A DNA stretch of 64,000 bases, from positions 1-64,000 of the forward strand of contig VGWF01000005.1 in the NCBI GenBank assembly GCA_016873715.1, in the 5' to 3' direction. A program made the translations under genes and the position numbers. The stretch comes from Lentisphaerota bacterium. GTDB lineage: Bacteria > Verrucomicrobiota > Kiritimatiellia > PWTM01. Of this stretch, positions 9,186 to 17,607 are shown piece by piece (position 1 is the stretch's first letter; each line of letters starts with the position of its first letter). Under the pieces are notes generated by a model. The model had not been told where the DNA came from. It searched no databases and was given only the letters and a program-made list of their open reading frames with translations.

Positions 9186-9303
9186 GGAGGACTGTGTCTC
9201 GGCATGGAGCCAGCGGCCAACGAGTCCACGGTCCGCCTCGCTCGGCGGTCCGCCGCCCCACCATAAGGTCGGAAGCCCGAAACTCGAAACGCCACCTTCC
9301 CAC

Positions 9304-9457
9304 CACCTGACACCCGCCACCCGCCACCCGCCACCCGACACCCGACACTCGACACCTGACACTCGCCACTCGACACTTAACCCCCGACACTCGCCACCCG
9401 ACACCTGACACTCGCCACCTGACACTCGACACCCGCCACCCGACACCGGACACCCCT
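9304..9457. repeat. 7-bp tandem array, 22 units in perfect register
   Basis: There are 22 consecutive heptamers of the form CACYYGM (CACCCGC, CACCCGA, CACTCGA, CACCTGA and variants) without a single frame slip. The array ends 5 nt before the ATG of the symporter at 9463. It fills most of the 277-bp gap after the beta-galactosidase. The preceding part of the gap has a CCGCC/GGCGG hairpin near 9233-9248. Confidence 0.85.
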
Positions 9458-10901: not shown

Positions 10902-12059
10902 CTACACCATCGGCTGGGGCATGGGAAGGTTCGGGAAATAGGTCTGTGCCAGCAGGGCGTAGAGGAGCGTTCCGATGACGAGGAACGCGAGGATGGCGAC
11001 GATCCCGTAGCCGACGCCCGGCTCGTCCACTTCCTGCACGCCCAGCGCGCGGCTCAGTTCCGCCTCGGCAATCTGGGCCGGGGTGGCGCCCTCGGCGATG
11101 CCCTCGACGCCCGGCTCGCCCTCCTCACGCGCCACGGGGCGCTGAAGCACGAGGGTCTTGGCCCCGGTCGCGGGCCCTTCGCCGCCCCGCTTGATCCGGA
11201 TCGTCTTGCGCTGCGTCGGCGGCGCCGAGGTGTCGACGGCGCCGTCGGGGATCGAGATGCGCGCCGTGGCGCCCTTCTGCTCCGCCTCGCCGGCCGCGTT
11301 CAACTGCACCGTCTTCGGTCCCTGCGTGGGCGGGGCGACGACGGGCCGATGCGCGGGCTCGGCCGGGGCTTCGGGGCGTTTGAGGACGACGGTTTTCGGG
11401 GCGGCGCCCGCATCCGGGCGCTTGAGAATGACGGTCTTGGGCGCCGCGGTGGGGCGCTGCAGACGCACCGTCTTCGGCGGCGTGGCCTTGGCGGCGACGT
11501 CGGCCGGGATGGTCATCTTGCCGGTGTCGCCGAGCGAGCCGCCGGTCGGAAGGGTCTCGTCCGCATCGATCATGATGCGGGCGGTGCGCCCGAGCGCGGC
11601 CTGTTGCGTGATCTGCTCGACCGGTCCGCCGGCGGCCTGGATGGCGCCGGTGGCGACCTTGGACGTTGCCGCCTTCGGAACCGCCGCGGCCGCGAACGGC
11701 GGCACGCGCTGCGAATCGCGCAGGGCGATGCGCGACGTCGACGCCTTCGCGACGGGGATCGCGTCGCCGGGGGCCACGGGTTGCGAATCGTGGATGCTGA
11801 TGCGGGAGGTCTGGGCCTTGACCGTGGCCGAGACGGGGGGAAGCACGGCCGTCTTGGGCGACTTGCCCAGCACGTCCCGGACGTTGAGGGCTTCGCCCGC
11901 GCCCGCCGTCTCGATCGTCGACGGCTCGGCCGCCGCAAGGTCGATGCGGGAGGTGTCCGGCTTCTTCGCGCCGGGCTGGCCGAGGTTCAACCGGATCTTC
12001 GGCGGGATCGGACTTGCGCTGTCCCCGCCGTTCGCCCCGTTCGTTTTTTCGTCCGCCAT
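10902..12059 (-). CDS. Tail-anchored protein of unknown function with repeated Thr-centred motifs
   Basis: I do not recognise this 385-residue protein. It is mostly disordered and rich in Ala, Pro, Lys and Thr, with one hydrophobic helix near the C-terminus (about 348-370) and a short tail ending PMPQPMV. This predicts a C-terminally anchored protein with the bulk in the cytoplasm. About a dozen short motifs recur in two styles: TSRI/TARI preceded by a Lys ([39 protein letters not shown]) and KTV-x-L followed by RP ([40 protein letters not shown]). GGAGG precedes the ATG at 12059. The gene follows trmB on the same strand (33 bp), so the two may be co-transcribed. Confidence 0.75.
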
Positions 12060-12092
12060 GATCTGGCCTCCGCACTCCGCTTGCACTTCAGA

Positions 12093-13235: not shown

Positions 13236-14261
<1,026 letters not shown>

Positions 14262-14267
14262 AAGCGG

Positions 14268-15164
14268 ATGCCCGGTGTTTCCAGCTTCCTGACGCCCGCG
14301 GACGTCCGGCGGATCGCCAGCCTCCAGGTCCTGGCGCGGACGGTCGTCGAGGGCTTCTGCAGCGGCCTGCACCGGTCGCCGCACAAGGGGTTCAGCGTCG
14401 AGTTCCGCGAGCACCGGGCCTACGTGCCGGGGGACGAGATCCGGCGGCTGGACTGGAAGATCTTCGCGCGGCGCGACCGCTTCTACGTCCGCGAGTTCGA
14501 GGAGGAGACGAACGTCCGCGCGACGATCCTCCTCGACGTCAGCGGCTCGATGGCCTACGGCAGCGGCGAGGTCACCAAGCACCACTACGCGACGCGGCTG
14601 GCGGCGTGCCTGGCCTACCTGATGCTCCAGCAGGCGGATGGCGTCGGGCTGGTCAGTTTCGACACGGGCGTGCGGGAGTACATCCCGCCGCGGTCGCGCC
14701 CCGGTCACCTGCGCGTGCTGGTCGACGCCCTCGCGGCCTCGAAGCCCGGTGGGGAGACCGAGCTCGGGCGCGTCTTCCACGACCTCGTCGCGCGCGTCCA
14801 CCGGCGCGGGTTGCTGATCGTGATTTCCGACTGCTTCGGCCGCGTGCCGGACCTGCTGTCCGCGCTGGCGCACTTCCGCCACGCGCGGCACGAGGTGATC
14901 CTGTTCCAGGTCTGGGATCCGGCGGAGCTCGAGTTCCCGTTCCGCACGTGGACGCGGTTCGAGTCGCTCGAGCGCGCGGCCCATCACCAGTTCGTCGATC
15001 CCGCCACGCTGCGCGAGGCCTACCTGCGGCGCGTCGCGGAGTTTCGCGAGGAGCTCAAGCGGGGCTGCCACCGGCACCGCGTGGACCTCGTGCCGCTCGT
15101 CACCGACCGCCCCTACGCCGATGCGCTCGCGCAGTACCTCACGCTGCGCCGGAGGCGGGCGTGA
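14268..15164 (+). CDS. DUF58 / VWA-like protein
   Basis: This 298-residue protein has the DUF58 signature YVPGDEIRRLDWKIFARRD (about 50-68) followed by a von Willebrand A-like fold with the metal-site motif LLDVSGSMAYGS. DUF58 proteins are standard partners of MoxR ATPases, although the biochemical role remains unclear. No signal peptide or transmembrane helix is visible, so it is probably cytosolic or membrane-associated through partners. Its stop is followed after 1 nt by a heptamer array that separates it by 292 bp from the BatA-like gene. Confidence 0.88.
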   Translation: MPGVSSFLTPADVRRIASLQVLARTVVEGFCSGLHRSPHKGFSVEFREHRAYVPGDEIRRLDWKIFARRDRFYVREFEEETNVRATILLDVSGSMAYGSGEVTKHHYATRLAACLAYLMLQQADGVGLVSFDTGVREYIPPRSRPGHLRVLVDALAASKPGGETELGRVFHDLVARVHRRGLLIVISDCFGRVPDLLSALAHFRHARHEVILFQVWDPAELEFPFRTWTRFESLERAAHHQFVDPATLREAYLRRVAEFREELKRGCHRHRVDLVPLVTDRPYADALAQYLTLRRRRA

Positions 15165-15165
15165 A

Positions 15166-15430
15166 CGAACGCCGAACATCGACCATCGAACACCGAACGC
15201 CGAAGGGCGGCGGAGGATCGATGGCGGCGCTTCTCCGGCCGCGTCGCGTCGCGGTCGTCCAGGGCGTCCGGCACGAGCCCGCTCCCATCCTGCCCCGTCC
15301 CCCGTTGGATGTTGGATGTTGGACGTTGGATGTTGGATGTTGGACGTTGGATGTTGGACGTTCGTCCGGAGCCCGTCCGGGTCTGAACTTCGATGTTGGA
15401 TGTTCGATGTTCGGAGTTCGATGTTCGTCC
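15166..15430. repeat. Opposed 7-bp tandem arrays inside the MoxR operon
   Basis: Three blocks are present. 15166-15207 holds six units of CGAACRY type. 15305-15360 holds eight units of TTGGATG/TTGGACG. 15389-15430 holds six units of TTCGATG/TTGGATG type. The first block is complementary in style to the last (CGAACAT against ATGTTCG), so a transcript could form a long imperfect stem. Between them lies about 100 bp of GC-rich sequence. Reading through the array yields a period-7 Met-Leu-Asp-Val-Gly-Cys-Trp peptide, an artefact of 7-bp repeats. Confidence 0.85.
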
Positions 15431-15456
15431 GCGGCCCTCCCCGGGAGGGCGCGGCC

Positions 15457-17607
15457 GTGACGTTCCTCAACATCGTCCTGCTCGGCGGCCTCGCGGCGGC
15501 GGCGATCCCGCTGATCATCCACCTGCTCAACCGGCGGCGGTTCCAGGTGGTGCGGTGGGGCGCGATGATGTTCCTCGACGACATCGTCCGCACGAACCGC
15601 CGGCGCATCCGGATCGAGCAGCTCCTCCTGCTGCTGGTCCGCATGGCGATCCCCGCGCTGCTGGCGCTGGCGATGGCGCGGCCGGTCCTGACCGGCATCC
15701 GCGCGCTGATCCGCCGGGCGCCGTCGTCGACGGTGGTCCTCTTCGACAACAGCTTCTCGATGGAGGCGGGGGAGGCGGGGCGGTCGACGGCGGGGGCGGC
15801 GCGCGAGGAGGCCGCGGCGATCGTCGCGGACCTGCCCCGCGGGTCCGAGGCGGCGGTGGTCGGGATGGCGGGGCCGATGCCGGCGGTGGAGGATCCGACG
15901 GTGGACCTCGTCCGCATCCGCAGCGGCCTTGAGGATGCGCCGGGCGGCTTCGGGCTGGCGCGGATCGCGCCGGCGCTGCAGACGGCGGCCGGGCTGTTCG
16001 CGTCGCGCATGCACCAGGCGGACCGGACGGTCGTCATCGTCAGCGACTTCCAGCGCGCGAGCTGGTCGCCGGCCTCCACCGAGGAGCGCCGGCGCGCGTG
16101 GGACGCGCTCGGGGCGCAGGCCGTGCCGCCGCGCGTGGTCTTCTTCCCGATCGGCGCGGCGTCGACGGACAACATCTCGGTGGAGTCGATCGAGCTGTCG
16201 CGGCCGATCGTCGGCACCGGCCAGCGGGTGATGGTCCGCGCCGGGCTGCGGAACCACGGGCGCAGGGCCTACCCCGACCTGCGCGTGCACTTCCGGGTCG
16301 ATGGCGTCGACCGGGCGGCCGCGATGGTCTCGCTCGCGGCGGGCGAGACGGAGCAGGCCCTCTTCCCGTGCACGTTCGACCGCGCCGGGTCGCACGTCGT
16401 CGAGGTGCGGACCGAGGCCGACGCGCTGCGGGCCGACAACGCCGCGCTGGCCTCGATCCCGGTGCTCGACCGGATCCCGGTGCTGCTGGTCAGCGGCGAC
16501 GCCAACCCCGCGCCCCTCCGGGGCGAGACCGCGTTCCTCGAGATCGCGCTGCAGCCGTTCTCGCGCGGCGGCGGGAAGATGTCCGACCTGGTCGCGACGC
16601 GGGTGACGCCGGAGGACCGCTTCGCGCCGTCGATGCTCGACGACGCGCGGGTCGTGGTCCTCGCGAACGTCCGCCAGCTCTCCGGCGATGCGGTCCGCGC
16701 GCTGCGCGACTTCGTGCGCGACGGCGGCGGCCTGCTGGTGTTCCCCGGCGACCGCGCGAGCGCGGCGTGGTACGCCACGCAGCTTGCCGGCGCGGAGGGG
16801 CTGCTGCCCGCGGCGCTGGGCGTGCTGGCGGGGGACCCGGCGGACGACGCCGGGGCCTCGGCCATCGTCGCGCAGCGCCACACCCACCCGGCGCTCGCGC
16901 CGTTCAACGATCCCCGCCGCGGGAGCCTCGGCGGGTCGCGCATCCGCGCGTGGTACCGCCTCGAGGTTCCGTCCGAGTTCGCGGAGGGCGTGGCGGCGCG
17001 CCTCGACACGGGCGATCCGTTCCTGGTCGAGCGGCGCGTCGGCGAGGGGCGCGTGCTGCTTTCCGCGGTGCCGTGCGACGCCGACTGGAGCAACCTGCCG
17101 ATGCGGCCGTTCTACCTGCCGCTGATGCAGGAGATGGTCGTCCACCTCGCCTCGAACGTCCACCCGCCCCGGAACGTCGAGGTCGGCGACCGCCTCGCCG
17201 CGTTCCTCGCGGAGCCGGAGGGCGAGGCGCGCGCCGTCGTGACCGACCCGGAGGGCACGGCGCACGAGGTGCCGGTGGTCCGCCGCGGGCGCCGGGGCGT
17301 TGCGGAGTTCGCGGAGACGGACCGGCCCGGGCTCTACACGCTGCGCGGTCCGAAGGACGAGCCCGTCCACTTCGTCGTCCGCACCCCGCGGGAGGAGTCC
17401 GACCTCGCGCGCGTGACGGAGGAGGAGATGAAGGCCCTCGCGACCGAGGCCGGGGCGAAGGTCGTCCGGTCCGGCGACGAGTACCGGGAACTCGAGCGCG
17501 AGCGCCGGTTCGGCCGCGAGCTGTGGCGGTCGGCCTGGTGGCTCCTCCTCGCCCTGCTGCTCGGCGAGCTGGTCCTGCAGCGCTGGTTCGCGCGGAGGGC
17601 CGCATGA
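15457..17607 (+). CDS. BatA-like membrane-anchored VWA protein
   Basis: This 716-residue protein starts at GTG 15457, chosen because GGGAGGG lies about 7 nt upstream and the N-terminus TFLNIVLLGGLAAAAIPLII is the classic BatA membrane start. An upstream ATG at 15421 lies in repeat sequence. A second helix spans about residues 55-75. The VWA domain begins at about 85 with the metal-site motif LFDNSFSM. A CARDB/Ig-like section and a glutamine-amidotransferase-like Rossmann section (RIPVLLVSGDANP onward) follow, with a final hydrophobic segment (WWLLLALLLGELVLQ). It overlaps the next gene by 4 bp (ATGA), so the two are coupled. Confidence 0.88.
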   Translation: MTFLNIVLLGGLAAAAIPLIIHLLNRRRFQVVRWGAMMFLDDIVRTNRRRIRIEQLLLLLVRMAIPALLALAMARPVLTGIRALIRRAPSSTVVLFDNSFSMEAGEAGRSTAGAAREEAAAIVADLPRGSEAAVVGMAGPMPAVEDPTVDLVRIRSGLEDAPGGFGLARIAPALQTAAGLFASRMHQADRTVVIVSDFQRASWSPASTEERRRAWDALGAQAVPPRVVFFPIGAASTDNISVESIELSRPIVGTGQRVMVRAGLRNHGRRAYPDLRVHFRVDGVDRAAAMVSLAAGETEQALFPCTFDRAGSHVVEVRTEADALRADNAALASIPVLDRIPVLLVSGDANPAPLRGETAFLEIALQPFSRGGGKMSDLVATRVTPEDRFAPSMLDDARVVVLANVRQLSGDAVRALRDFVRDGGGLLVFPGDRASAAWYATQLAGAEGLLPAALGVLAGDPADDAGASAIVAQRHTHPALAPFNDPRRGSLGGSRIRAWYRLEVPSEFAEGVAARLDTGDPFLVERRVGEGRVLLSAVPCDADWSNLPMRPFYLPLMQEMVVHLASNVHPPRNVEVGDRLAAFLAEPEGEARAVVTDPEGTAHEVPVVRRGRRGVAEFAETDRPGLYTLRGPKDEPVHFVVRTPREESDLARVTEEEMKALATEAGAKVVRSGDEYRELERERRFGRELWRSAWWLLLALLLGELVLQRWFARRAA

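Follow-up and report, generated by a model that had tools for sequence, protein, structure and literature searches.

The window that we analyzed, a stretch of 64,000 nucleotides from a Lentisphaerota bacterium (contig VGWF01000005.1), contains on its minus strand an open reading frame that extends from an ATG at 12059 to a stop at 10902 and translates into a protein of 385 amino acids, to which we refer here by the working name TSRI scaffold. The gene is present in a single copy in its own genome, and its position, together with those of the features discussed below, is given in Table 1. The 385-amino-acid protein matched neither a Pfam or NCBIfam model nor a solved structure, and no consistent Pfam match was observed among 44 relatives. 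Elsewhere in the window, at ∼9200 to 9400 and at 15150 to 15450, short repeated intergenic stretches appeared as repeated peptides in mechanically derived open reading frames; these resemble intergenic repeats of a dispersed or tandem kind.

Table 1. Positions in the window of the TSRI scaffold gene, of the regions of its product and of the Thr-centered motifs
Feature	Position	Strand	Basis
Whole TSRI scaffold gene	10902..12059	-	Open reading frame and translation, 385 aa plus stop; 91 homologues
GGAGG, ribosome-binding-site-like, seven bases 5' of ATG	12067..12071	-	Read off the sequence
Disordered chain, residues 1-318	11106..12059	-	AlphaFold2 pLDDT <50 almost throughout
Membrane helix, residues 347-374	10938..11021	-	AlphaFold2 helix, block pLDDT 86-92
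11-residue tail past membrane, conserved LPFPGR type	10905..10937	-	Alignment A1
Motif A, T36, KPDTSRIDL	11937..11963	-	Relatives keep KSDTSRIDL
Motif B-like, T70, SPKTAVLPP	11835..11861	-	Motif scan
Motif A, T84, KAQTSRISI	11793..11819	-	Motif scan
Motif A, T108, KASTSRIAL	11721..11747	-	Motif scan
Motif A-like, T132, KAATSKVAT	11649..11675	-	Motif scan
Motif A-like, T159, LGRTARIMI	11568..11594	-	Motif scan
Motif A-like, T179, LGDTGKMTI	11508..11534	-	Motif scan
Motif B, T197, PPKTVRLQR	11454..11480	-	Motif scan
Motif B, T209, APKTVILKR	11418..11444	-	Motif scan
Motif B, T223, APKTVVLKR	11376..11402	-	Motif scan
Motif B-like, T250, GPKTVQLNA	11295..11321	-	Motif scan
Motif A, T265, KGATARISI	11250..11276	-	Lys, Thr and Arg invariant in A1
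Motif B, T286, QRKTIRIKR	11187..11213	-	K-T-I and I invariant in A1
Motif B, T302, GAKTLVLQR	11139..11165	-	Motif scan

A reading made from the sequence alone had described the protein as a disordered chain with a single membrane helix at its end. This description is correct, since AlphaFold2 assigned pLDDT values below 50 to almost all of residues 1 to 318 and a confident helix to residues 347 to 374, which as the single helix of the 385-residue protein lies close to the C terminus, in a tail-anchored layout. The best hydrophobic window spans residues 353 to 371; none of 91 homologues has a second one, and the best window is followed there by a median of 17 residues. The tail past the membrane is conserved across homologues as LPFPGR or LxWPGK, which suggests a contact outside the cytoplasm that the model proposed below leaves unexplained. 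The chain itself is rich in Ala, Pro, Lys and Thr (8.9% T, 7.7% S), and no FHA domain was detected either by Pfam in the 385-amino-acid protein or in the C-terminal modules of 44 relatives.

Distributed over the disordered chain are two related classes of Thr-centered motifs, class A being K-x-x-T-[SA]-[RK]-[IV]-x-[LIV] and class B [PR]-K-T-[IV]-x-[ILV]-K-x-P. The sequence-only reading had counted about a dozen such motifs with basic residues; we found 14 Thr residues in a T-x-x-[ILVM] context with basic flanks, and the number of copies is far above that reached by shuffling. T-x-[RKVQT]-[ILV] occurs 12 times, with 1.8 ± 1.3 copies expected (maximum of 7 in 2000 shuffles), and [KR]..T..[ILV] occurs 15 times, with 1.9 ± 1.5 expected (maximum of 8). 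One correction is that the two classes are not evenly intermixed: K-x-x-T-S/A-R-I is found mostly in the first half of the chain and P-K-T-V-x-L-K/Q-R-P mostly in the second. The abundance of sites is a family trait as well, with a median of 8 motif Thr residues (range, 4 to 18) in family proteins longer than 220 amino acids, compared to 1 in shuffles and 1 for the corresponding Ser pattern.

The identity of the central residue was assessed by a masked scan, in which the rest of the motif was required and the Thr position was left free. Among the 91 homologues, class A sites (K-x-x-T-[SA]-R-I-x-L) carried T in 256 cases, S in 2 and V in 1, and class B sites (P-K-T-I-x-[IL]-K-x-P) carried T in 160 cases, S in none and P in 1, i.e., 416 of 420 masked sites were Thr; the homologues were partly recovered via their motifs, so that the counts are somewhat biased toward motifs, but the whole open reading frame was scanned after recovery, and the contrast between Thr and Ser as well as the orthologue comparison below depend little on this bias. 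In the same 91 homologues, the +3 residue was I, V or L in more than 95% of the sites, and variation in the flanks was conservative (R or K at +2, I, V or L at +3). When all Thr residues of the family were tallied without preselection, I, L, V or M was found at +3 in 41% (background, 17%), and a basic residue (R or K) occupied +2 in 36% and -3 in 28%, with a background of 14%; the same tally for all Ser residues was patternless, with 13% at +3.

In the three closest orthologues, identity was 77 to 80% at motif positions and 44 to 48% in the linkers. All 13 scored motif Thr residues were kept, compared to 6 or 7 of 17 other Thr and 8 to 10 of 17 Ser residues. The homologues thus show the opposite of a family in which the motifs are lost and the rest of the chain is kept, the outcome that had been named in advance as refuting the sequence-only reading. 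The near-absolute preference for Thr over Ser, combined with an aliphatic +3 residue, is what would be expected of a phosphothreonine site read by FHA domains.

Querying named genomes directly by pattern with this one protein yielded nothing; a profile built on the conserved C-terminal module (A1) succeeded and matched 197 of 288 Kiritimatiellia genomes, from 98 of 113 genera. The wider A2 profile detected the scaffold in 98 of 116 class genomes, and one genome scored as lacking it (G105) also carries a scaffold gene, on the same contig and strand as frr. The gene is nearly universal in Kiritimatiellia. Divergent relatives outside the class retain the repeated T-x-[RK]-[ILM], the helix and the short tail. 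Relatives in family f18 (L151 and others) have DQTMKIDDDALSTGNLKDALAD-type repeats in tandem; this variant is acidic and retains T-x-K-I. The earlier statement that no family with this layout was known proved accurate in that no described family covers the protein, and we found no description of it in the literature; the protein is nevertheless no orphan but a member of a large undescribed family.

The 77 scaffold neighborhoods analyzed contained trxA in 52 cases, frr in 42 and pyrH in 42, most commonly in the order pyrH-frr-[gene]-trxA on one strand, which confirms orthology where sequence similarity is low. Genes that by eye resemble rph and mutY adjoin the scaffold gene in a few genomes. 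A redox role together with the adjacent thioredoxin was ruled out, as the chain is nearly free of Cys (0.01%). The family of the source genome has lost this gene order; next to its scaffold gene lie genes for a TrmB-type methyltransferase and a Na/Ala symporter as well as a MoxR-DUF58 cluster. In the window, the cluster adjoining the scaffold gene (13272 to 17607) comprises MoxR, DUF58 and VWA genes. Fusions of FHA domains to MoxR-type AAA ATPases were also seen, both in the own genome (L006, on G000:C7) and elsewhere (L173, L185, L188 and L192).

Co-occurrence with Ser/Thr kinases and FHA domains had been proposed as a check of the kinase-substrate reading, and in the sampled genomes the scaffold was always accompanied by both: none of the 116 class genomes carried it without an FHA domain and a Ser/Thr kinase. 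Pkinase (PF00069) was missing only from five genomes of family f16. FHA (PF00498) was missing from these five and from one f30 genome, and from no others; none of the six carries the scaffold. Each of the five f16 genomes is at least 93% complete, and neither a Hanks-type kinase nor an FHA domain was detected in any of them. The scaffold is missing from all five f30 genomes, four of which have no or only weak FHA matches; the fifth (G091) has a strong FHA match yet no scaffold. These two were the only lineages with good assemblies and no scaffold, the other absences falling in assemblies that were 68 to 89% complete. At the f16 and f30 loci (L272 to L281), other genes, often coaBC-like ones as judged by eye, take the place of the scaffold and trxA after pyrH-frr, and no scaffold was seen at the loci other than that of G091. 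A weak f16 match (L273_0; E value, 0.0012) was rejected as an unrelated short PEGA-like protein by sequence. Outside the class, FHA was found in all 12 genomes matching the scaffold profile and was absent from 4 of 25 others. Since the co-occurrence is based on two lineages, it is supportive and does not amount to independent statistical proof.

The genome from which the window derives encodes an FHA protein (G000:C9:26486-26986, minus strand; L004 and L206) in which an FHA domain is joined by a short linker to a C-terminal membrane helix. Orthologues of this tail-anchored protein (L207 to L235) occur in 83 of the 116 genomes, nearly always one in each, and in none of f16 and f30. Their alignment shows conservation of the phosphothreonine pocket residues GR, S-x-x-H and T-N-G (Gly, Arg, Ser, His and Asn are listed as FHA signature residues in PMC5549992), and they share a juxtamembrane motif of the SISPFG type. 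The nearest solved relative is GarA, and scores lie far below the NCBIfam cutoffs for OdhI and FhaB. Among single proteins, this tail-anchored one is our strongest candidate for a reader of the scaffold. At the threshold used it was not found in some carriers of the scaffold, most conspicuously f18, and other FHA proteins must therefore serve there if the model holds.

Small soluble FHA proteins (L168, L174, L181, L183 and L195; alignment A3) share a conserved GKGY-S/T-TILxEIV extension, and several small FHA proteins end in basic strands (RINIKRP, ITIKRK) that resemble motif B minus its Thr. The GKGY type was rejected as a universal reader, as several carrier families (e.g., f9 and f24) match its profile only generically.

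The architecture, the conservation of the motifs and their Thr residues, the class-wide orthology and the co-occurrence are best explained, and probably so, by a tail-anchored disordered scaffold that is phosphorylated on multiple Thr residues and read by FHA domains. Of what had been proposed from the sequence, a multisite kinase substrate with FHA docking is accordingly phrased here as the best-supported reading. The C-terminal helix would anchor the scaffold to the cytoplasmic membrane, leaving the long chain on the cytoplasmic side. Hanks-type Ser/Thr kinases would phosphorylate several of the Thr motifs with their aliphatic +3 residue, and FHA domains would dock on the resulting phosphothreonines. 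In this way, the scaffold may recruit proteins with FHA domains to the membrane, multivalently and to an extent graded by phosphorylation. FHA domains are specific for phosphothreonine (PMC3953482) and choose by the +3 residue (PMC5549992), and sites dependent on the kinase PknA prefer Leu or Val at +3 and Lys or Arg at +4 (PMC7164672). The aliphatic +3 residue of the motifs and the basic +4 residue of class B match these PknA-dependent sites, but the basic residues upstream of Thr in the scaffold differ from the acidic ones reported there (PMC7164672). It also counts against the model that the conserved neighbors pyrH, frr and trxA give no hint of signaling, and no signaling link was seen in the gene neighborhood of either the scaffold or the tail-anchored FHA protein. 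Our literature search found neither a phosphoproteome of the clade nor a paper joining the clade with FHA domains or kinases, their substrates or their readers.

Alternatively, the motifs might act as unmodified docking peptides, with each T-x-R-I-x-L or T-I-R-I-K-R-P segment adding an extended edge strand to a folded partner whose groove would need both the hydroxyl and the methyl group of Thr. The alternation of polar and hydrophobic residues in T-x-R-I-x-L is indeed strand-like, with positions +1, +3 and +5 often aliphatic, Thr favors strands, and the Thr-less ends of some small FHA proteins described above suggest that the strand itself may be a ligand. However, a strand position should also accept Val, Ile or Ser, in conflict with the outcome of the masked scan, and docking of this kind leaves the joint absence of the scaffold with kinases and FHA domains unexplained; we regard it as unlikely. 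Less likely still is an electrostatic tether to DNA, RNA, ribosomes or anionic lipids, in which phosphorylation, if any, would merely tune charge. Basic residues do flank each motif, and the frequent location of the gene directly after frr would hint at ribosomes near the membrane, but an invariant Thr and an aliphatic +3 residue are both superfluous if charge alone matters, residues of the K or R type at -3 and +2 are conserved in only 84 to 85% compared to 99% for Thr, and the source-genome family retains the protein without linkage to frr. That the chain is merely of low complexity and under little selection, with repeats arising by chance or local duplication, would fit its composition and its freely drifting linkers, but two results exclude chance repetition, namely the scarcity of motif Thr residues in shuffled proteins (median, 1 per protein, compared to 8 observed) and the contrast between motifs and linkers in the closest orthologues; in addition, families that have diverged deeply still carry the motifs at a single syntenic position.

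A phosphothreonine scaffold of the kind that we favor would have partial counterparts in known systems. Rv1747 of Mycobacterium tuberculosis possesses two FHA domains and a disordered linker and is served by the kinase PknF; in vitro, it is driven toward condensates by phosphorylation, and it forms clusters in the membrane (PMC9312465). Like the scaffold, it is a membrane protein with a disordered segment, and it involves FHA domains and Thr kinases as our model predicts for the scaffold, but its FHA domains and linker lie within one ABC transporter chain, whereas the scaffold chain is devoid of folded domains and would be read by a separate protein. In the Agrobacterium TssL-PpkA-Fha system, an FHA protein reads a phosphorylated Thr on the cytoplasmic portion of a membrane protein (PMC3953482); TssL, however, is an otherwise folded secretion component with one such Thr, whereas the scaffold family has up to 18 motif Thr residues and no link to secretion. 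GarA, OdhI and FhaB contain the phosphothreonine-binding domains most similar to the FHA domain of the candidate reader, which unlike them has a C-terminal membrane helix and the SISPFG-type motif.

Among eukaryotic proteins, the disordered linker of human MST2 carries seven pTM sites that are read by the FHA domain of SLMAP (PMC5663475). It resembles the scaffold in being disordered and in having several phosphothreonine motifs and an FHA-type reader (both predicted for the scaffold), and it differs in its pT-M-x-R/K consensus and in that the sites are located on the kinase itself. SLMAP is tail-anchored. LAT of T cells combines one membrane helix with a long disordered cytoplasmic tail bearing many phosphosites for modular readers; it relies on phosphotyrosine and SH2 domains, and its order relative to the membrane is opposite to that of the scaffold, so that it offers an analogy only. 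The scaffold family is an undescribed, class-wide one that belongs to none of the known FHA or phosphothreonine scaffolds but most likely functions as they do.

As the family lies outside all Pfam and NCBIfam models, its members are probably annotated as hypothetical proteins everywhere. The clade possesses several Hanks-type kinases and FHA proteins, for which the scaffold resembles a common hub. We tentatively extend this to the possibility that Kiritimatiellia have a near-core, dedicated multivalent phosphothreonine scaffold, comparable in logic to LAT or the MST2 linker, with a tail-anchored FHA reader, converting kinase activity into graded FHA clustering, and that a divergent form of the scaffold exists beyond the class. 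The candidate sites are known to the residue, which makes the specificity of kinases and readers testable with short peptides. If true, the model would provide a bacterial case of a pure multisite phosphothreonine scaffold and would assign a role to an undescribed conserved gene of the pyrH-frr-trxA neighborhood.
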